Shown piece by piece: positions 12,734 to 23,280 of a stretch of DNA of 43,964 bases. Below the pieces are notes generated by a model that did no database searches, was not told the origin of the DNA, and was given only the letters and a program-made list of their open reading frames with translations. The first letter of the stretch is position 1. The number at the start of each line of letters is the position of its first letter. This DNA is from Flavobacteriaceae bacterium (GTDB taxonomy: Bacteria; Bacteroidota; Bacteroidia; Flavobacteriales; Flavobacteriaceae). The position numbers and the translations under genes were made by a program. Location: assembly GCA_021739635.1 (NCBI GenBank), contig JAIPBH010000018.1:1-43964 (forward strand), in the 5' to 3' direction.

Positions 12734-13708
12734 TTAGTTTTTCATGGGCTTACGCTTAATCATGCCACCTTTTAAATCCTTAACAATGCCCATAATTACA
12801 AATGCATTTTTATCAATTTTATCTATTTCTGTTTGTAATTTGGCAAGTTCTAATCTGGTTACTACAGTGTAAATAATATCTTTGTCATAGCTTTTGCCGT
12901 GAGCTCCAAAACCACCTTTACCTGCATAAATAGTACAAGCTCTTCTTAGTTTTTCAATAAGCATAATTCTTATAGTTTCATGATGGTTTGATATAATAGT
13001 AACACCTACATATTCTTCAACGCCATCCACAACAAAATCAACTGTTTTGGCTGCTGCTAAGTAGGTTAAAATAGCATATAGAGCAGTTTCAACCGAAAGA
13101 ATATAAGCTCCAAAAGAAAAAATAATGATATTGATTATAAGTAAAACATCACCAATAGTTAATGATAGTTTCCTGCTTAAAAAAATAGCTAGAACTTCTG
13201 TGCCATCAATGACACTTCCGCCACGCATAGACATTCCAATTCCTAAACCTAAAAAGAAACCACCAAAAACTGCAATAAGTAATTTATCTTCTGTAATTAT
13301 AGGATAATCAACATAATGTACTACAATAGCTAATAATGAAATAGCTAAAATACTTCTGATGGCAAACTTTAAATTAAATGTTTTTGAGGCCAGAATTATA
13401 AACGGAATGTTAACTAAAATCAATAAATAGCTTAAATCTATTTTAGTGGTATTTTCTAATAATAAAGAAATACCTGTTGCGCCACCATCAATAAATTGAT
13501 TTGGAAGCAAAAAGCCTTTTAATCCAAAACCGGCTGCAAAAACACCAATAACAACATAAATAGACTCTTTAATCGTATGTGATAACTCTACTTGTAAACT
13601 TCTTACTATTGGAAGAATCTGTTCATCATTTACTGTAGTTGAACCCTGTTTAATTTTTATTTTTTTACGGGCAATATCTACTAATATTTTTGAGATGAAT
13701 GGATTCAT
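12734..13708 (-). CDS. YitT-family membrane protein with DUF2179 domain
   Basis: 324 residues. After about 50 soluble residues there are five or six membrane segments (for example YVVIGVFAAGFGLKGFLLP, YLLILVNIPFIILAS, LLIAVFGGFFLGLGIGM, IIIFSFGAYILSVETAL). FIDGGATGISLLL and MRGGSVIDGTEVLAI are the repeated glycine-rich motifs of the family. A C-terminal cytosolic DUF2179 domain (about 235-320) contains TIYAGKGGFGAHGKSYD and YTVVTRLELAKL. The family is widespread and its transport role, if any, is unestablished. The roughly 45-residue N-terminal extension is longer than in Bacillus relatives. Confidence 0.88.
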   Translation of the reverse strand: MNPFISKILVDIARKKIKIKQGSTTVNDEQILPIVRSLQVELSHTIKESIYVVIGVFAAGFGLKGFLLPNQFIDGGATGISLLLENTTKIDLSYLLILVNIPFIILASKTFNLKFAIRSILAISLLAIVVHYVDYPIITEDKLLIAVFGGFFLGLGIGMSMRGGSVIDGTEVLAIFLSRKLSLTIGDVLLIINIIIFSFGAYILSVETALYAILTYLAAAKTVDFVVDGVEEYVGVTIISNHHETIRIMLIEKLRRACTIYAGKGGFGAHGKSYDKDIIYTVVTRLELAKLQTEIDKIDKNAFVIMGIVKDLKGGMIKRKPMKN

Positions 13709-13717
13709 ATTTTAAAT

Positions 13718-14281
13718 TTAATCGGTTTTATTCCAGTTTAAGAAAAAGAACTTGATTTTAGCATTATCAGGAATATGTACTGCTTCAATTTTTAAACTCA
13801 TATCAAATCGCATATTGGCTGGTAATTCTTTTTTATCTATGGTAAAAGAGGCGTTAATTTCATTTACGGTTACAACTATTGAATTAATTAAATTATCAAT
13901 TCTTGTTATTTTATAATTGTTGGCAATATCTTTAAAGCTGCTTTCTGTAGATAGTTTTTTGTCTGTTTTAAATCTTGGGTCAAAAACACGTACACTTTGA
14001 ATGTATGATGTTGAATCTGATGGGTTTCTAGGACTAATACTTAATAATTTTTTTCCGCCTTTTTCAAAAATTTCTATATCATTAATGTTTCTGGTAAACT
14101 CTGTATCATTAAGGCTTTTAACTATGGAATCTTTAGAAAAAATAGCTTTAAGATCTTTTACTTGTGTAGAATCTGTTAATAGGCCAATGTGTTGTTTTCC
14201 TATTTGAAAAGGATCTTGCTCTTTGCTACAACTAGCAAATATTAAAGACAAAATAGTTAAATATAAAAATGATTTATTCAT
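13718..14281 (-). CDS. Lipoprotein of unknown function
   Basis: 187 residues. A lipoprotein signal ends in the lipobox FASC (Cys18). The rest looks like a small mixed alpha/beta periplasmic domain (IGLLTDSTQVKDLKAIF; IEIFEKGGKKLLSISP; IQSVRVFDPRFKTDKKLS), repeated in pattern across the protein. I do not recognise a family. It starts 37 bp after the HerA-type ATPase gene and ends 9 bp before the YitT-like gene, so it belongs to the same minus-strand run. Confidence 0.7.
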   Translation of the reverse strand: MNKSFLYLTILSLIFASCSKEQDPFQIGKQHIGLLTDSTQVKDLKAIFSKDSIVKSLNDTEFTRNINDIEIFEKGGKKLLSISPRNPSDSTSYIQSVRVFDPRFKTDKKLSTESSFKDIANNYKITRIDNLINSIVVTVNEINASFTIDKKELPANMRFDMSLKIEAVHIPDNAKIKFFFLNWNKTD

Positions 14282-14318
14282 ATAAAAACGGAGATATTTA
14301 AAATTGAAATTACTTGTT

Positions 14319-15866
14319 TTATTTCCTCATAACTTTGGTTAAAATACCAAAAACACTTCTAATAAAGGTGGCACTTGTAAGAACTTTAACAACTGGATTT
14401 ATGGCAGTACTTCTTCTACTTGAGCTAGAGCTTTTTGCTTTTTCTTTTAATACTGCTTTTTCAAGAGCTTCTTTTTCTAGCCTAGCTTTTTCTTTGGCAT
14501 CTTCAGCTTCAGCACGTTCTATTTTTTCGTTAAGCATTTCATAGGCACTTTCTCTATCAATAGTTTGGTTATATTTTTTAACCAGTTTTGATTTGATAAG
14601 AAGGGCATTTAATTCAGAATCTGTTAAAATATCCATTCTGCTCATAGGCGCTCGCATCATAGCAGCAGCAAGAGGTGTTGGTCTTCCTTTTTCATCAAGA
14701 GCAGAAACTAAGGCTTCTCCAGTACCTAAAGATGTTAGTACTTTTGTAGTATCATAATAGTCAGAATCTGGATAGTTTTGCGCCGCAAGTTTAATAGCTT
14801 TTCTATCATTAGCGGTAAAAGCACGCAATGCATGCTGTATTTTTAAACCTAACTGACTTAATACAGCTTCTGGCACATCGGTTGGGTTTTGAGTAACAAA
14901 ATACAAACCTACACCTTTACTTCTAATCAACTTTACAATGCTTTCTATTTGATTAAGTAGTGCTTTTGAAGCTTCATTAAATATTAAATGGGCTTCATCA
15001 ATAAAAATAATAAGTTCAGGTCTATCTGCATCGCCTTGTTCAGGAAATGTTGAATATATTTCTGCTAATAAACTCAACATAAAGGTTGAAAACAGTTTTG
15101 GTCTATCTTGAATATCTGTTAATCTAATAATGTTTATATAACCTCTACCATCTTCATCAATTCGTAATAAATCATTGACTTCAAAAGAAGTTTCTCCAAA
15201 AAATAAATCGGCACCTTGTTGCTCTAATTCTACAACTTTACGTAAAATGGAACCTGTTGAAGCCGTAGAAATATGCCCATAAGCTTCTCCAAATTCTTCT
15301 TTTCCTTCTTGAGTGGTATATTGTAATATTTTTTTGAAATCTTTTAAATCAAGTAGTGGCATTTTGTTGTCGTCACAATATTTAAAAATAACAGCCACAA
15401 CACCAGATTGCGCTTCAGATAAATCTAAGATTCTTGATAATAAAACAGGACCAAACTCACTAACAGTTGCTCTTAAACGTACACCATCTTGTTCTGATAA
15501 AGTCAATACTTCAACAGGAAAACTTTTTGATTCAAAAGGAATACCAATTTTTGCATGGCGTTCATCAATTTTAGGATGACCTGGGCTTGGTTGAGCCAAA
15601 CCACTTAAATCTCCTTTAATATCCATAAGCAATACAGGAATACCTTTATCGCTTAAATTTTCAGCAAGAACTTGTAGAGATTTGGTTTTTCCGGTTCCGG
15701 TAGCTCCGGCAATTAAACCGTGTCTGTTTAAAGTTTTTAATGGAATTTTTACAAGTGCATTGGTAATAGTTTCACCATCTAACATAGCAGCACCAACAGG
15801 AATAAAATCTCCTTTGCAAATATTACCTTCGGTTATATAATTAAAAAATGTTTCCTTATTACTCAT
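14319..15866 (-). CDS. HerA-like / DUF853 P-loop ATPase
   Basis: 515 residues. Walker A is GATGTGKT at residues 54-61, Walker B is in IIFIDEAHLIF, and a QNPTDVPEAVLSQLG sensor-like motif follows. The family resembles HerA/FtsK-type translocases and was named helicase HerA-like or DUF853. Its cellular job is not settled. The C-terminal 90 residues are a charged coiled coil (ERAEAEDAKEKARLEKEALE), then a serine-rich linker and a hydrophobic end (VKVLTSATFIRSVFGILTK). That end could dock to the membrane or to a partner. It is divergent from queE, with 105 bp between starts. Confidence 0.85.
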   Translation of the reverse strand: MSNKETFFNYITEGNICKGDFIPVGAAMLDGETITNALVKIPLKTLNRHGLIAGATGTGKTKSLQVLAENLSDKGIPVLLMDIKGDLSGLAQPSPGHPKIDERHAKIGIPFESKSFPVEVLTLSEQDGVRLRATVSEFGPVLLSRILDLSEAQSGVVAVIFKYCDDNKMPLLDLKDFKKILQYTTQEGKEEFGEAYGHISTASTGSILRKVVELEQQGADLFFGETSFEVNDLLRIDEDGRGYINIIRLTDIQDRPKLFSTFMLSLLAEIYSTFPEQGDADRPELIIFIDEAHLIFNEASKALLNQIESIVKLIRSKGVGLYFVTQNPTDVPEAVLSQLGLKIQHALRAFTANDRKAIKLAAQNYPDSDYYDTTKVLTSLGTGEALVSALDEKGRPTPLAAAMMRAPMSRMDILTDSELNALLIKSKLVKKYNQTIDRESAYEMLNEKIERAEAEDAKEKARLEKEALEKAVLKEKAKSSSSSRRSTAINPVVKVLTSATFIRSVFGILTKVMRK

Positions 15867-15956
15867 TCTGTTTAATTTTGTATAAAAATAACTATTCCAA
15901 ATTTAATTCATACAAACAAGATAAATAAAACTATCAACATTTAGTAAGCAAAATAG

Positions 15957-15964
15957 TATCTTTG
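15957..15964 (+). promoter_or_regulatory. -7 promoter element (TATCTTTG) abutting queE start
   Basis: The plus strand reads TATCTTTGCAAACTT and then ATG at 15972, with seven bases between octamer and start codon. It is identical over 14 bases to the module before rluF. The transcript is expected to have almost no leader. Confidence 0.7.
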
Positions 15965-15971
15965 CAAACTT

Positions 15972-16601
15972 ATGAATAAAGAGATTAAAAAATTAGTTGA
16001 AAAAGGCGAAATGCTTCCGTTAATGGAAGAGTTTTACACCATTCAGGGTGAAGGATTTCATAAAGGAACAGCTGCTTATTTTATTAGAGTTGGAGGTTGT
16101 GATGTGGGCTGTCATTGGTGTGATGTGAAAGAAAGTTGGAATGCCGATTTGCATCCGCCAACTGAGGTTATAAAAATTGTTGAAAACGCTAAAAAATATA
16201 GTGATACGATAGTAATTACTGGTGGCGAACCTTTAACTTGGGATATGACTGTATTAACTACAAAACTAAAGGCAGAAGGCATGAAAGTTCATATTGAAAC
16301 CTCTGGTGCTTATAAATTAACTGGAGTTTGGGACTGGATTTGTTTGTCTCCTAAAAAACTTAAATTGCCTACTGAAGAAGTTTATAAAAAGGCTGACGAA
16401 CTTAAGGTTATAGTATTTAATAAAGACGATTTTAGATTTGCAGAAGAGCAAGCAAAAAGAGTAAATAAAAATTGTATTTTATACTTACAGCCAGAATGGA
16501 GTAAACGAGATAAAGTGATTCCAGAAATTGTAGATTATGTGATGAAGCATCCTAAATGGAAAGTATCTTTACAAACCCATAAATATTTAAATATACCATA
16601 A
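15972..16601 (+). CDS. queE: 7-carboxy-7-deazaguanine synthase QueE
   Basis: A radical-SAM enzyme that contracts 6-carboxy-tetrahydropterin to 7-carboxy-7-deazaguanine, the third step to queuosine. 209 residues. The cluster motif CX3CX2C is Cys43-Cys47-Cys50 in GGCDVGCHWCD. Other landmarks are the substrate-binding FYTIQGEGFHKGTAAYFIR, TGGEPLTW as the SAM-binding GGE motif, and LSPKKLKLP followed by LQPEWS. It is a single gene here; other queuosine genes are not in the window. It is convergent with the YCF48-type gene. Confidence 0.95.
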   Translation: MNKEIKKLVEKGEMLPLMEEFYTIQGEGFHKGTAAYFIRVGGCDVGCHWCDVKESWNADLHPPTEVIKIVENAKKYSDTIVITGGEPLTWDMTVLTTKLKAEGMKVHIETSGAYKLTGVWDWICLSPKKLKLPTEEVYKKADELKVIVFNKDDFRFAEEQAKRVNKNCILYLQPEWSKRDKVIPEIVDYVMKHPKWKVSLQTHKYLNIP

Positions 16602-17980: not shown

Positions 17981-20900
17981 TTATTTTTTAATAATTTTAA
18001 CATTCATTTCTTCTACTTTTTTATCTGAAAGCATTGATGGCGCCCCAAATAATAAATCGTCGCTCGTGCCTGTTTTCGGGAATGCCATCACTTCACGTAT
18101 GGATGCTTTTTTCTCTAAAATCATCATCAGCCTATCCACGCCCCAAGCAATACCGCCGTGTGGTGGCGCGCCATAATGGAAGGCTTTGTACATGGTGCCA
18201 ACGCTTTTTAGCATTTCTTCTTTATTATAGCCCATGTTTTTATAGGTGGCTTCTAAAATTTCGGGTTTGTGCGCACGAATGGAACCACCACCAATTTCGT
18301 AACCGTTTAATATTAAATCATATTGTTGCGCGATGATGCTTCCAATTTCTTCTTCCTTGCCATTCATGTGTTTTTCAATATCATAAACCGCGGGCATAGA
18401 GAAGGGGTTGTGGGTAAACGTCCATCGGCCTTCATCTGTTTTTTCAAACATAGGGAAATCAATCACCCACGCCGGGCGCAATTCCTTCGGATTTATTAAA
18501 TGCAACATGCTGCCCAATTCTTGACGTACCGCATCTAAAGCTTTGTTAGCTGTGGCATAATCGGCTGCCGAGAAAAACACAATATCGCCTACTTGCGCAT
18601 GGGTTGTTTTTATAATACCGGCTGCAATGTCTTCACCCAAAAATTTAATAATAGGCGATTGTAAATCGGTTTCATTAACAATAATATATGCTAAACCACC
18701 CAAGCCATGTTGTTGCGCAGTGGCCGTTAATTTTTCAATTTGCCCTTTTGATAAGCGTTTGTTGCCTTGTTCTTCGGCAGACACTTTTATACATTTTACA
18801 ATACCGCCTTCTTCAATGGGTTTACTAAATACTTGAAAGGTGGTGTCTTTTACAATATCTGTAATGTCTTGAAGTTTTAATCCGAAACGTAAATCGGGTC
18901 TATCGCAACCATAATAATACATGGCATCTTGGTAGGTAATGACTTCAAACGGACGCAAAATCCATTTGTTGCCATATATTTTGTTTACTACTTCATTAAA
19001 CATTTTGGTGTTTAAATCGATGATTTGCTGCATGCTGGCATAGGCCATTTCTATATCTAATTGGGTGAATTCCGGCTGGCGGTCGCCACGGGAATCTTCA
19101 TCCCTAAAACAACGTGCAATCTGGAAATACTTTTCGTAACCGCTAACCATCAGCATTTGTTTAAACTGCTGAGGTGCTTGTGGTAAGGTATAGAATGCGC
19201 CAGGTTGTTTACGAGTTGGCACAATAAATTCGCGTGCCCCTTCATCGGTTCCAGCACTTAAAATCGGTGTTTCAATTTCCAAGAAATGTTCTGCATCTAA
19301 AATATCACGCAGTAATTTAATGACTTTGTGACGGTTAACAATCACGCGTCGCACATCATCATTTCTGTGGTCTAAAAACTTATACTGAAAACGAATGGTT
19401 TCGTTGGTTTTTGTGGCACGTTTTATTTCAAAAGGAAGCGTTCTAGATAGATTTAAAATATCCAATTCATAAGCTTCTAATTCTATTTTCCCGGTTCGTA
19501 AAGCGGCATTATAATCATCTTCCTTACGCTGAACAATGGTGCCCGTAACGGTAATTACCGATTCTGGTTTTAACTTCACCAATTCATCTAAATTCGCGAA
19601 CGATTCCCTGCTTAAACGCACTTGGAAAATTTCGGTACTAGAATCACGTAAATCTATAAAAATCAACTCACCATGATCGCGAACACTAGAAACCCAACCT
19701 GCAAAAGTTACTTTTTCGGAGATATTAGCTTCTGAAATAGATGTGATTAAATGTGTTCTGTATTCCTCTTTTATGATGATGGGGATCTCGGGAAGTACTT
19801 CTTCTTGTTGTTTAGGCGTTTGTTGGTCTTGGGTCTTGGGTCTTGGGTCTTGGTCTTCAGTCTTTGGGCTTCGGTCATCTCCAGCAAGCGCTTTCAAAAT
19901 ACCTTCACGAACCACTTTTCCAGAAGCCCCTTTTCCAATAATTTCAATGACTTTTCCAACTAAAATACCAGCTTTTCCTTGGTTTCCAGCTTTAATGTCG
20001 TTTGCCGTGGCTTCATTTTCTGAAATGACTTTAGCAATGGCATCTTGGATTTTTTCTTCGGAAATGCTGTTGGCTTCGAAATAGGTTTTATAGTTGAATT
20101 GGGCATCTTCCAACAACGATTTTATGGCGTTTTGAACCAATACAACCGTTACTTTTTCTTCTTTAAATAATTTGAAAATATCAATAAAATCCTGAATATT
20201 TTCGATTTTAGAATACTCCTCAGGTTTTATATTGTTTGATAATGTTTTGGCAACAAACGAGGCATCATTCAATTCATTATTAATCGCAACAAAAGTTTCA
20301 GAACGCAACGAATCTGCTGTGAAAAATTTAGCATCCTGTGGTAATACGCCGCCTTGAATTAAAATAGATTCTACCGCAAAAGGAAGCGTTTTAGTATCCA
20401 CTTGAATCGCTTCCACAGCATTTTTAATTGAAACAAAAGGCAAATCGGGCTCAGAAATGAATCGGTAATCTGCTTCAAATTCCTTTTTACGCATGGTTTT
20501 GGTTTGCTTTAAATCGGCATCCCACAAAACTGTGGTTTGATCGGGTCTAAATTCCTTATGCTCAATATAATAATTGAATTGTTTTTCAACTTCTTCCTTT
20601 AAAGCATCCACCATAAACTTAAACGAGTTCAAGTTTTTAATTTCGGTACGTGGGTTTAACGTATAACTATGTTTTTTACGAAGTGATACGGAGACATCCG
20701 ATTTAAATTCCCCTTTTTCAAGATTGGCTTCAGAAATTTTTAAATTTTGAACAATACGTTGAATGTACTGTGCATAGGTAGAAGCATCTTCAATATGGCG
20801 AATACAAGGCTCCGTCACAATTTCAATTAAGGGTACGCCAGCTTTATTAAAATCGACTAACGAAACCGTTTTTTCGTGCATCAATTTGGCGGCATCTTCC

Positions 20901-21313
20901 TCAATATGAACTTGGGTTAAATTGACCGTAAACTGACTCCCATCATTCCTGAAACACGATACTTGTCCGTCAGGAATAATCGGATTATGAAACTGTGTAA
21001 TTTGAATATTCTTTGGGTTATCCGGATATTCATAATGTTTTCTATCCCAAGAAATAACGACGTTTTCAAAAGAAGAATTCACGGCTTTTCCGAAATAAAT
21101 AGCCTTGGTAATTGCTTCTTTATTTATGGCTGGCAACACACCCATTTGCCCCGTGCAAACGGAGCATATATTTTGGTTTGGTGTATCTATTTCTTGATTC
21201 GGACAAGAACAGAATAATTTGGTTTTTGTGTTTAATCGAACGTGTGTTTCTAGTCCGATGACTAACTCTAAATCGTGCGCTTTTAACGCGGCATCTAATT
21301 GTTCCAGTTCCAT
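17981..21313 (-). CDS. gatB-aspS: Fused aspartyl/glutamyl-tRNA amidotransferase subunit B and aspartyl-tRNA synthetase
   Basis: 1110 residues joining two enzymes. Residues 1 to about 478 are GatB. Zinc ligands are Cys35, Cys37, Cys50 and Cys53, followed by HYEYPDNPKNIQITQ, FNKAGVPLIEIVTEP and TEIKNLNSFKFMVDAL. A charged, low-complexity linker (about 479-510) is encoded by heptamer repeats. Residues from about 515 are a complete bacterial-type AspRS: OB-fold anticodon domain, motif 2 from Phe736 (FRDEDSRGDRQPEF), a GAD insert, and motif 3 with Arg1061 (GIAWGVDRLMMIL). His547 in RDHGE replaces the Leu of tRNA-discriminating bacterial AspRS, hinting at a non-discriminating enzyme that also charges tRNA(Asn). 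Its ATG overlaps the gatA stop (TAATG). I recall similar fusions annotated in other Flavobacteriaceae. Confidence 0.95.
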   Translation of the reverse strand: MELEQLDAALKAHDLELVIGLETHVRLNTKTKLFCSCPNQEIDTPNQNICSVCTGQMGVLPAINKEAITKAIYFGKAVNSSFENVVISWDRKHYEYPDNPKNIQITQFHNPIIPDGQVSCFRNDGSQFTVNLTQVHIEEDAAKLMHEKTVSLVDFNKAGVPLIEIVTEPCIRHIEDASTYAQYIQRIVQNLKISEANLEKGEFKSDVSVSLRKKHSYTLNPRTEIKNLNSFKFMVDALKEEVEKQFNYYIEHKEFRPDQTTVLWDADLKQTKTMRKKEFEADYRFISEPDLPFVSIKNAVEAIQVDTKTLPFAVESILIQGGVLPQDAKFFTADSLRSETFVAINNELNDASFVAKTLSNNIKPEEYSKIENIQDFIDIFKLFKEEKVTVVLVQNAIKSLLEDAQFNYKTYFEANSISEEKIQDAIAKVISENEATANDIKAGNQGKAGILVGKVIEIIGKGASGKVVREGILKALAGDDRSPKTEDQDPRPKTQDQQTPKQQEEVLPEIPIIIKEEYRTHLITSISEANISEKVTFAGWVSSVRDHGELIFIDLRDSSTEIFQVRLSRESFANLDELVKLKPESVITVTGTIVQRKEDDYNAALRTGKIELEAYELDILNLSRTLPFEIKRATKTNETIRFQYKFLDHRNDDVRRVIVNRHKVIKLLRDILDAEHFLEIETPILSAGTDEGAREFIVPTRKQPGAFYTLPQAPQQFKQMLMVSGYEKYFQIARCFRDEDSRGDRQPEFTQLDIEMAYASMQQIIDLNTKMFNEVVNKIYGNKWILRPFEVITYQDAMYYYGCDRPDLRFGLKLQDITDIVKDTTFQVFSKPIEEGGIVKCIKVSAEEQGNKRLSKGQIEKLTATAQQHGLGGLAYIIVNETDLQSPIIKFLGEDIAAGIIKTTHAQVGDIVFFSAADYATANKALDAVRQELGSMLHLINPKELRPAWVIDFPMFEKTDEGRWTFTHNPFSMPAVYDIEKHMNGKEEEIGSIIAQQYDLILNGYEIGGGSIRAHKPEILEATYKNMGYNKEEMLKSVGTMYKAFHYGAPPHGGIAWGVDRLMMILEKKASIREVMAFPKTGTSDDLLFGAPSMLSDKKVEEMNVKIIKK
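19825..19871. repeat. Tandem heptamer (GGTCTTG)x4 inside the GatB-AspS linker
   Basis: Four perfect copies of GGTCTTG occupy 19825-19852 on the plus strand. A degenerate tail (GTCTTCAGTCTTTGGGCTTCGGTC) runs to about 19871+. On the coding strand it produces the Pro/Lys/Thr/Gln/Asp linker (PKTQDQ, QDPRPK). Seven bases is not a codon multiple, so a change of one or two copies would shift the AspRS frame. Confidence 0.92.
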
Positions 21314-22713
21314 TATATTGTGTCTTTTAAGAAGTTAGCAAACTTCAAAACGAGTTCGTCATTATTTTTTGCGGCAGTAATTTGCAAGCCTGTTTCTGTG
21401 CCTTTTGGTATGGTTAAAGTAGGTAATTGCCCTAAACTAAAACCAACGGTGTAGGCATCACTTAAATACATGGCATGCGGATCTTTTAAACTATCACCAA
21501 TTTTTGGAGGTGAGTTTGGAGTAACAGGCGAAAGGATGATATCTACTTCCTTGAAATCGTTTTCAAAATTTTCTGAAATAGCATCACGTAGCGCCAATCC
21601 TTTTAAATAAATTTCATCTGAAAACCCTTGAGATAATACTTGGTTGCCACCAACAATACGACGTTTTGTTTCTTCCGAAAAATTTTCAGAACGCGTGATG
21701 GCGTAAGATTCTTTTAAGTTTTTATCGTCAATGCGGTTGCCATAATTGCTACCATCCAATCGAGATAAATTGGAAGCTGTTTCAGCCATCGCCAAGGTGT
21801 AATAGGTTGAAACCAGAATATCAGATTTAAAGAAATCCAGTTCCTTGACTTCAATGCCTTTGGCTTTTATTTTTTCTATAGTTGTTAAAAAATCAGCTTT
21901 TATTTTAGAATCTATGGCATCATTTTCAATAAAGTTTTTGAAATAGCCAACGATTTTAATGGCTTTAGCATTTGAAATACTGTCTTTAGTAATTTCCGCG
22001 GAAGCGTAAGTGGTTTGATCTTTAACGTCTTTGCCACTCATCACATTTAATAGGATACGAATATCCTCTACCGATTTGGCAATGGGACCCACACAATCTG
22101 TAGATGAGGCATACGCCATCAAACCATAACGCGAAATGCGTCCGTAAGTCGGTTTTAAGCCATACACATGGTTATAACCAGCTGGTTGTCTCACCGATCC
22201 ACCCGTATCGCCACCAATGGAAAAAATCGTGTAATCTTTGGCAACATTCACCGCTGAACCACCGCTAGAACCACCTCCAACTAAATCGGAATTGTTAGCG
22301 TTTTTTACAGCGCCAAATATGGTATTTTCGCTAGACGACCCATGTCCGAAACTATCACAATTCTCTTTTACGATGGGAATAGCGCCCGCATCCAATAATT
22401 TTTGAATGGCTGTTGCTGTGTAAGGTGACTTGTAATTTTTTAGCAAATTTGAGCTTGCTGTGGCATAAGTGCCTTGTAGCATATACACATCTTTAATTCC
22501 AAAAGGAATACCTTCAAGTAAACCAATAGTGTCTCCGTTTACTATTTTGGTATCTACTTTTGCAGCTAATTGTAAGGCTAAATCGTTTAATAAGGAATTA
22601 ACGGTGTTGTTTGTATTCTCTTTAAGAGCGTTTAATTTTTGCTGAATTAATGCGGTGCAAGATATTTTTTTATCAACTAATTGCTGATGGATTTTATGTA
22701 TTTGAGAGTCCAT
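21313..22713 (-). CDS. gatA: Aspartyl/glutamyl-tRNA amidotransferase subunit A
   Basis: The glutaminase subunit of GatCAB. It frees ammonia from glutamine or asparagine and passes it to GatB to amidate Asp-tRNA(Asn) or Glu-tRNA(Gln). 466 residues with the amidase-signature triad complete: Lys74 (GIPFGIKDV), cis-Ser149 (GGGSSGGSA) and Ser173 (GGDTGGSVRQPA). The spacing equals that of characterised GatA (75 and 24 residues). MAETASNLSRLDGSNYG is the usual GatA motif. The gene lies between gatC (2 bp gap) and gatB-aspS (1 bp overlap). Confidence 0.96.
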   Translation of the reverse strand: MDSQIHKIHQQLVDKKISCTALIQQKLNALKENTNNTVNSLLNDLALQLAAKVDTKIVNGDTIGLLEGIPFGIKDVYMLQGTYATASSNLLKNYKSPYTATAIQKLLDAGAIPIVKENCDSFGHGSSSENTIFGAVKNANNSDLVGGGSSGGSAVNVAKDYTIFSIGGDTGGSVRQPAGYNHVYGLKPTYGRISRYGLMAYASSTDCVGPIAKSVEDIRILLNVMSGKDVKDQTTYASAEITKDSISNAKAIKIVGYFKNFIENDAIDSKIKADFLTTIEKIKAKGIEVKELDFFKSDILVSTYYTLAMAETASNLSRLDGSNYGNRIDDKNLKESYAITRSENFSEETKRRIVGGNQVLSQGFSDEIYLKGLALRDAISENFENDFKEVDIILSPVTPNSPPKIGDSLKDPHAMYLSDAYTVGFSLGQLPTLTIPKGTETGLQITAAKNNDELVLKFANFLKDTI

Positions 22714-22715
22714 AA

Positions 22716-22985
22716 TTATTCTTCTATAACTTTAGAAACCACTAAATAGCCGTTTTTTTCTTTAGGAAAGTTTTCAATGATGATTTGTTTTTCTATGGAA
22801 GAACTTTCAATCACTACATCATCTCTTAAATCTGTTAAAGACACGTAATTATTATGATTGTTATTAAAAGCATTATTATTTAAAGGTTGAGCCTTTTTTA
22901 TGGCATCAAATAATTTGTTTACAGCTTCACTAGGTTGTGCGCCTTTAATGCTCGACAATACGTCTACCGTCATTATTTTACTCAT
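22716..22985 (-). CDS. gatC: Divergent GatC-like subunit with Asn-rich insert
   Basis: 89 residues from the ATG at 22985. The C-terminal half matches GatC: LRDDVV, then ENFPKEKNGYLVVSKVIEE, equivalent to the LREDEV...NAP...FRVPKVIE segment that wraps GatA. The N-terminal half (MTVDVLSSIKGAQPSEAVNKL) lacks the usual GatC helices IAKLARL.L. Residues 36-46 contain eight asparagines (NNNAFNNNHNN). A 111-residue reading from a TTG at 23051 would translate the terminator hairpin and is rejected. GatC should tie GatA to GatB. The gene is first in the operon, directly after the attenuator. Confidence 0.78.
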   Translation of the reverse strand: MSKIMTVDVLSSIKGAQPSEAVNKLFDAIKKAQPLNNNAFNNNHNNYVSLTDLRDDVVIESSSIEKQIIIENFPKEKNGYLVVSKVIEE

Positions 22986-23003
22986 GTCTTGGTTTTTTAA
23001 ATT

Positions 23004-23033
23004 AAAAAAAGCCTTCCAAATTAGGAAGGCTTT
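23004..23033 (-). terminator. Attenuator terminator upstream of gatC
   Basis: On the minus strand, arms AAAGCCTTCC (23033-23024) and GGAAGGCTTT (23017-23008) pair perfectly over 10 bp with a 6-base loop, and a T run continues to 23004. It lies downstream of the leader frame and 19 bases before the gatC ATG, so it would stop the operon's own transcript. No other minus-strand gene ends close by; the response regulator gene ends at 23281, before a separate promoter. Confidence 0.88.
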
Positions 23034-23086
23034 ATATATATTTTTCAACAATAACCTTCCTGTCCTACCAATTAGGATTATTGAAA
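23023..23086 (-). promoter_or_regulatory. Antiterminator and protector segments of the gat attenuator
   Basis: On the minus strand, AGGAAGG (23061-23055) is exactly complementary to CCTTCCT (23029-23023) in the 5' arm of the terminator; UU/GA extend the pairing by two. This would exclude the terminator. The region GGTTATTGTTGAAA (23056-23043) can instead pair with TTTCAATAATC in the leader codons (23086-23076), leaving a three-base bulge, and hide part of the antiterminator. These are the 1:2, 2:3 and 3:4 pairings of a classical attenuator. Confidence 0.7.
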
Positions 23087-23112
23087 TTGTTATTATTGTT
23101 TATAGTTTGCAT
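23065..23112 (-). CDS. Asn-rich leader peptide MQTINNNNNFNNPNW
   Basis: A 15-codon frame with ATG at 23112-23110 and TAG at 23067-23065. Eight codons are Asn (AAC AAT AAT AAC AAT, then AAT AAT and AAT). It starts 18 bases after a perfect -7 promoter element and is followed by competing RNA structures and the gatC terminator. By analogy with trp and his leaders, a ribosome stalled on codons 5-9 for lack of Asn-tRNA would cover the protector segment and allow the antiterminator. A ribosome reaching the stop codon would cover the antiterminator strand and let the terminator form. AAT is frequent in AT-rich DNA, so conservation must be checked. Confidence 0.72.
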   Translation of the reverse strand: MQTINNNNNFNNPNW

Positions 23113-23130
23113 TTAAATAAATTAACACCT

Positions 23131-23138
23131 CAAATATA
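23131..23138 (-). promoter_or_regulatory. -7 promoter element of the gat operon (TATATTTG)
   Basis: The minus strand reads TATATTTG, a perfect TAnnTTTG match, 18 bases ahead of the leader-peptide ATG. Transcription should start near 23125. No convincing -33 TTG was found at the standard spacing. Confidence 0.65.
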
Positions 23139-23280
23139 TACAGAAATACCAAACGAAGCACTATTTTTTTTCACAACTTGGTATGTATTATAGAATTGTT
23201 AAAAAAGGCAAAGAAAATTTGTAGATTTTATTTGGTTTTAAGGTATTTCAATAAATTGTTTGTTTTTCTACAACGCTAAA

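Follow-up and report, generated by a model that had tools for sequence, protein, structure and literature searches.

The window analysed here is a stretch of 43,964 nt from a Flavobacteriaceae bacterium (assembly GCA_021739635.1, contig JAIPBH010000018.1, positions 1-43,964). Its minus strand carries, in this order, the promoter element TATATTTG, a short leader open reading frame (ORF), the strand AGGAAGG, an intrinsic terminator and the start of gatC at position 22985. gatC (22716-22985, minus strand) occupies the position before gatA and encodes a divergent protein of 89 amino acids with an Asn-rich stretch; its match to TIGR00135 is weak (E 2e-4, 21.6 bits, under the cut-off of 47.1), and a Pfam search of the protein gave no match. 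The product of gatA (21313-22713, minus strand; 466 amino acids) matches the Pfam Amidase family above its cut-off and TIGR00132 with an E-value of 5.6e-129 and 430.9 bits, under the cut-off of 481.1. An earlier note on this DNA had listed gatB and aspS as the genes that follow; both are present, but as a single fused ORF (17981-21313, minus strand) of 1110 amino acids and not as separate genes. In this protein GatB (PRK05477.1-2, residues 14-477) precedes a bacterial-type aspartyl-tRNA synthetase (AspRS) with a GAD domain (PRK00476.1, residues 517-1109), both NCBIfam models being matched above their cut-offs, and Pfam detects GatB_N, tRNA-synt_2 and GAD. The fusion is 1107-1120 amino acids long in 75 named loci, and among the best-scoring GatB matches listed for the class, free proteins of ~490-520 amino acids predominate. 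We found no report of a GatB-AspRS fusion in the open-access literature, which covers the field in part. The downstream neighbours (12734-16601) look ordinary: a QueE-like radical SAM protein (15972-16601), a HerA_C-type ATPase (14319-15866) and a YitT-family membrane protein (12734-13708).

The -7 promoter element TATATTTG (23131-23138, minus strand) conforms to TAnnTTTG, which we take to be the Bacteroidota-type motif. It is followed by the leader ORF MQTINNNNNFNNPNW and its stop codon (23065-23112, minus strand), 15 codons of which eight specify Asn, with five consecutive Asn codons at positions 5-9. No other ORF of 8-30 codons on either strand of the 44 kb holds five consecutive Asn codons. 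Behind the stop codon lies AGGAAGG (23061-23055), complementary to CCTTCCT in the 5' arm of the terminator; the latter is a 10-bp stem formed by AAAGCCTTCC and GGAAGGCTTT (23033-23008) with a T run that ends at 23004, and gatC begins beyond it. Promoter element, Asn-rich frame, complementary strand, terminator and the placing of the gatC start had all been read from the window before, and each is found where the earlier note had described it.

The leader recurs widely in the family. Among 80 named relatives (the best 80 of 141 loci retrieved with the GatA of the window), 50 carry it upstream of gatC. With further genomes of the family added, 121 loci had a recognised gatC and three more had none; removal of duplicates left 103 unique operons, of which 66 have the leader and 37 lack it. 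The leader-bearing operons span many genera of the Flavobacteriaceae and keep the same three pairings and the terminator; all 66 have a terminator downstream of the leader ORF and a complementary GGAAGG-type strand in between, which begins 6-8 nt past the first base of the stop codon. The promoter motif is likewise kept in 66/66, its end lying 10-23 nt upstream of the leader ATG. In an evenly drawn sample of the family, 45 of 299 genomes carry the GatA of this operon, and 27 of the 44 with a readable upstream region have the leader, 17 being leaderless. A search of 395 genomes of the order with an RNA model of the 66 leaders gave matches in six, one in each and always before gatC; under the strict filters of this search no leader appeared in any other gene context. 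Three loci outside the set defined by the gatC pattern (L127-L129) showed no leader, neither by eye nor in a scan.

Codon usage within the leader argues for selection on the peptide-coding level. When codons are numbered relative to the Phe codon, positions -6 to -1, +1 and +2 comprise 528 codons, of which 506 specify Asn and not one specifies Lys. Codon -5 is AAC in 31 and AAT in 31 of the 66 leaders and codon -4 in 50 and 15, respectively. Since such third-base swaps are common and Lys codons are absent, the identity of Asn is held by coding selection and not by base composition. The Phe and the Pro codon are each kept in 65/66 leaders, the stop codon is TAG in 66/66 and always lies six codons past Phe, at +6, and all three sit in base-paired strands. 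Codon +4 is Lys in 12/66, and codon +5, the last before the stop, varies freely with 14 different residues. The comparison thus reveals what appears to be a short leader ORF with tandem codons for one amino acid.

The RNA of the leader can be divided into four strands (all on the minus strand, located by folding). Strand 1 (23089-23098) consists of Asn codons and pairs with strand 2 in both the MFE and the centroid structure. Strand 2 (23046-23061) runs from AGGAAGG, the 5' arm of the antiterminator (23061-23055), into GTTATTGTTG, the 3' arm of the protector (23055-23046). Strand 3, AAAGCCTTCC (23024-23033), has two possible partners, strand 2 in the antiterminator or strand 4 in the terminator; strand 4 is GGAAGGCTTT with the T run (23004-23017). 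An inner hairpin, TCCTA(loop)TAGGA (23063-23077), includes the Pro codon and the TAG stop. The complete protector is composed of Asn codons paired with TTATTGTT-type sequence, of TTTC paired with the GGAA part, and of the TCCTA:TAGGA hairpin. The earlier note had instead paired leader codons 10-13 (TTTCAATAATC) with GGTTA/TTGAAA. This pairing had to be given up because TTGTTGAAA occurs only in the row of the window when the 66-row alignment is inspected by eye; the Asn codons form the protector in its place.

Conservation of the pairings is high, in cell counts that ignore shared ancestry. In the protector 98.4% of the alignment cells are paired, a value that falls to 38.8-63.2% on sliding by 1-3 columns; the column pairs of strand 1 are paired to 97.1% (65 distinct alignment rows) and the inner hairpin to 100%, with one row that shows a double change from C-G to U-A. 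Double changes occur in 3/17 protector pairs, a number reached by 2/500 shuffles. The antiterminator is paired in 98.8% of cells (65 rows) with double changes in 0/8 pairs, no better than the shuffles, and the terminator in 94.5% with a double change in 1/9 pairs, which 115/500 shuffles reach; we read several of the terminator misses as loop-length shifts within the alignment. GCCTTCC of strand 3 is invariant in the 66 rows. With stems that show so little variation, covariation is weak and only a handful of compensatory changes can be seen; the antiterminator is supported by conserved complementarity of the aligned sequences, not by covariation. A comparison of relatives had been suggested as a check on the window: Asn-rich frames, the three pairings and the terminator do recur, but compensatory changes are few and 37 of the 103 operons are leaderless.

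Folding calculations are consistent with a switch between two exclusive states. The leader RNA of the window folds at -29.8 kcal/mol, whereas 200 dinucleotide shuffles average -14.9 (z -4.9; 0/200 as good). The mean energies amount to -13.1 for the leader before strand 3, -12.1 for the antiterminator and -16.1 for the terminator. In full-length MFE structures the terminator is present in 66/66 leaders, strand 2 is paired upstream in the protector in 65/66, and the antiterminator is present in none. A ribosome was then modelled on the assumption that it covers 13 nt counted from the A-site codon. When the A site lies anywhere from codon -6 to codon +4, the antiterminator is free and forms in 66/66 leaders, at +5 it forms in 15/66, and at the stop codon it forms in none and is blocked in 66/66. 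The earlier note had likewise expected a stall on the Asn codons to free the antiterminator and a ribosome at the stop codon to cover AGGAAGG. By these folds, antiterminator and intrinsic terminator exclude each other, and a protector lies over the former. When no ribosome is present and the transcript ends before strand 4, the MFE structure is the antiterminator in 63/66, and therefore termination of an untranslated leader needs folding order and not equilibrium; judged by these folds, it must rely on the protector forming first, and it is here that the folding evidence is weakest.

The gene content of the genomes bears on what the operon makes. Glutaminyl-tRNA synthetase (GlnRS) is found in 44/45 operon genomes, the miss being a genome of 76% completeness (G271), and asparaginyl-tRNA synthetase (AsnRS) in 41/45 at 1e-80, with misses in G180, G228, G237 and G271. 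G228 and G237 each have three class-II synthetases of this family and G180 has four; because of these four matches, one can be less certain that G180 lacks AsnRS. AsnA is found in none of the 45 operon genomes. An AsnB-type protein, defined by matches with E up to 1e-50, is present in 15/45 genomes with the GatA of the operon versus 232/254 without it (Fisher p 1.7e-16; this test ignores phylogeny and genome completeness, and the other Fisher tests used here likewise take no account of shared ancestry). Ten of the 15 are listed with their lengths, nine of 603-642 amino acids and one of 569, and the long ones may, as we assume, be polysaccharide-type paralogues. The genome of the window has GlnRS and AsnRS and neither AsnA nor an AsnB-type protein; its two weak AsnB matches (617 and 652 amino acids) look by their lengths like GlmS and PurF. 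In a genome of the same genus (G133) an AsnB-type protein is present and GatA is absent.

The AspRS part of the fusion fits this distribution. It has His (RDHG) in 75/75 proteins that could be read (75 of the 80 named loci gave a full ORF). RDHG also occurs in 4wj3 and 4rmf, both named Asp/Asn ligase, and RDLG in 6hhv, named Asp ligase, and in 1efw. His versus Leu at this anticodon-binding position presumably marks the non-discriminating versus the discriminating enzyme, and the fusion, with His for Leu, is accordingly predicted to be of the non-discriminating kind. The window's genome retains a separate AspRS, which has Lys at this position. The distribution of AsnA, AsnB, GlnRS and AsnRS, together with the His of the fusion, supports the proposal of the earlier note that the operon probably produces Asn-tRNA(Asn), and the genes behind the leader would, by their content, supply the very aminoacyl-tRNA that its codons demand.

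In the attenuators of the his, trp, thr and ilv operons, a leader ORF rich in the codon for the amino acid of the pathway is combined with overlapping protector, antiterminator and intrinsic terminator structures. The flavobacterial element resembles them in its codon-rich short leader and its overlapping helices. The conserved leader, the coding selection for Asn, the alternative folds and the genome context all favour the reading given in the earlier note, and we consider it very probable that the element is a ribosome-mediated transcription attenuator of the his/trp type that senses Asn-tRNA(Asn). RNA polymerase would start just upstream, and translation of the 15-codon leader would begin without delay. 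With Asn-tRNA in good supply, the ribosome would traverse the Asn codons up to TAG and cover GGAAGG; after its release the protector helix of the Asn codons would refold over strand 2. With strand 2 covered or protected, strands 3 and 4 would pair and transcription would end before gatC. When Asn-tRNA runs low, the ribosome would stall in the Asn run and open the protector, strand 2 could pair with strand 3 ahead of the synthesis of strand 4, and polymerase would read through into gatC, gatA and gatB-aspS. Together with GatC and GatA, the GatB-AspRS fusion protein would then make Asp-tRNA(Asn), whose amidation to Asn-tRNA(Asn) would replenish the molecule being sensed.

Three other explanations have to be weighed against the Asn-tRNA attenuator. 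The leader might respond to general translation stress, that is to any stalled or slow ribosome, and not to Asn-tRNA specifically. The ribosome model lends itself to this view: wherever the ribosome halts as far as codon +4, the Phe and Pro codons included, antitermination follows, and specificity therefore rests on the number of Asn codons. But it is Asn that occupies 506 of the 528 codons, third-base freedom is confined to the two Asn codons, AAC and AAT, and the predicted product of the operon is Asn-tRNA, so that we regard an unspecific sensor as very unlikely. A constitutive terminator preceded by a functional Asn-rich small peptide, with nothing being sensed, would account for the amino-acid-level conservation of the core NNNNFNNPN, and GatC is likewise Asn-rich without a known role in sensing. 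A functional peptide gives no account of why the Phe, Pro and stop codons lie in base-paired strands, why the residue before the stop (+5) is free to be any of 14 or why each of the 66 leaders is followed by the terminator and an intervening complementary strand; we hold this explanation to be highly improbable.

Control without a ribosome, by a T-box or another riboswitch that binds tRNA or a ligand, has a precedent in Clostridium acetobutylicum, in which, according to a review, the tRNA-dependent transamidation operon is under a T-box (PMC4052509). In the window, by contrast, an Rfam search brought no family, T-box included, to the gathering threshold, and T-box and other Rfam RNAs were accordingly rejected as the element in the window. 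The available portion of a 2008 survey gives no T-box in seven Bacteroidetes/Chlorobi genomes (PMC2494555). Only ~80 nt separate the start of the leader from strand 3, and the Asn ORF is under coding selection. A ribosome-free switch is, on these grounds, scarcely conceivable to us, and the ribosome-mediated attenuator remains the preferred reading.

The clostridial T-box senses tRNA(Asn) and tRNA(Glu) as a two-codon element, according to that review (Saad et al. 2013; PMC4052509). The regulatory logic, in which tRNA(Asn) charging acts at a terminator on a transamidation operon, would be shared by both systems; the tRNA binds the clostridial RNA directly, whereas the proposed flavobacterial sensor is the translating ribosome. 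The T-box moreover responds to tRNA(Glu), according to the same review, whereas 44 of the 45 flavobacterial operon genomes have GlnRS. Saad et al. 2012 reportedly treats the same T-box as well. It had been stated that no Asn leader controlling GatCAB or AspRS was known. This holds for peptide attenuators, since we found no report of leader-peptide control of GatCAB or of Asn in the partly covered open-access literature, but control of such an operon by Asn-tRNA through a T-box is already on record for C. acetobutylicum. A transcriptome paper on flavobacteria mentions, in its available part, leader-peptide attenuation upstream of amino-acid operons that are not named there (PMC9723704). Unlike the his, trp, thr and ilv attenuators, the flavobacterial leader would sense Asn and control tRNA-dependent amidation instead of the synthesis of a free amino acid; it also differs in its Bacteroidota-type promoter near the leader start and in lacking an Rfam match at the gathering threshold. 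The novelty is a new specificity and a new target within a known kind of switch. If the reading is correct, asparagine would join the amino acids with ribosome-mediated attenuators, and a second kind of RNA control over tRNA-dependent amino-acid synthesis, independent of the clostridial T-box, would stand beside it.

Bacteria that possess both routes to Asn-tRNA, with AsnRS, GlnRS and GatCAB together, have been described before. According to the accessible part of one survey, Deinococcus, Thermus and Bdellovibrio have all three, with an extra or relaxed AspRS, and Bdellovibrio has no Asn synthetase; Bacteroidetes are among 18 genera with AsnRS, GlnRS and GatCAB and no Asn synthetase, of which only Deinococcus-Thermus have a second AspRS, of the archaeal type (PMC4206432). 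The flavobacterial genomes share this combination of enzymes, but their second AspRS, in contrast to the archaeal-type one described in that part of the survey, is bacterial-type and fused to GatB. A role for GatCAB in flavobacteria with both GlnRS and AsnRS offers itself here, namely the supply of Asn where AsnB is missing. We think it likely that the GatB-AspRS fusion with GatC and GatA replaced AsnB for Asn synthesis, that the attenuator makes this route a feedback backup to AsnRS, expressed only during a shortage of directly charged Asn-tRNA and with the aminoacyl-tRNA as product and signal at once, and that the attenuator has repeatedly been lost or gained.

A quick tree of 84 fusion proteins comprises 49 with the leader and 35 without, six of the latter forming the outgroup; on it the trait changes 14 times, at least nine of these changes being forced by starred branches. 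The outgroup is a second family of the class (f27), in which the gatB-aspS fusion is found at 58-70% identity in 8/8 genomes checked and the leader in none of these eight. Loss of AsnB as an explanation for the leader was not supported, AsnB-type proteins being present in 8/27 leadered versus 7/17 leaderless operon genomes (p 0.52); in a second sample the counts were 11/25 and 10/22, with two further leaderless loci left out. The genomes without an AsnRS match that are well covered, G237 (L123), G228 (L128) and G180 (L129), are all three leaderless, versus 14/40 of those with AsnRS (p 0.055), a tendency that is suggestive only. In these three genomes, less surely in G180, the operon may be the only source of Asn-tRNA, and in a genome without AsnRS its shut-off would abolish that only source. 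TAnnTTTG or TAnnTTCG lies within 60 nt of gatC in 21/37 leaderless operons, and because of this at least 21 of them seem to be transcribed from a direct promoter that substitutes for promoter and attenuator; within the same distance TAnnTTTG occurs in 0/66 leadered operons.

Several minor features of these operons may be added. The Asn-rich stretch of GatC spans residues ~31-52 (LNNNAFNNNHNN in the window) and contains on average 8.4 Asn per 22 residues in the 66 leadered and 9.3 in the 37 leaderless operons, with a minimum of 4; it may be no more than a linker, may add a further level of Asn sensing, or may have given rise to the leader by duplication. Three Tamlana loci look by eye as if they retained leader fragments such as AATAATCCTA. 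Leadered operons have a conserved block AAAAAATnGTG ~20-31 nt upstream of the -7 element (23159-23170, minus strand, in the window), possibly an unusual -33 element or the site of a regulator. Upstream of gatC, the loci L076, L087, L105 and L113 have a similar stretch, which reads TTTGATTTGAATTTACTGAATTAAT in three of them and is shorter in L113. By eye, a hairpin resembling a terminator (CACCAATGATT...TTGTTGGTG or the like) lies between it and the gatC promoter; this stretch is perhaps the end of the upstream gene.
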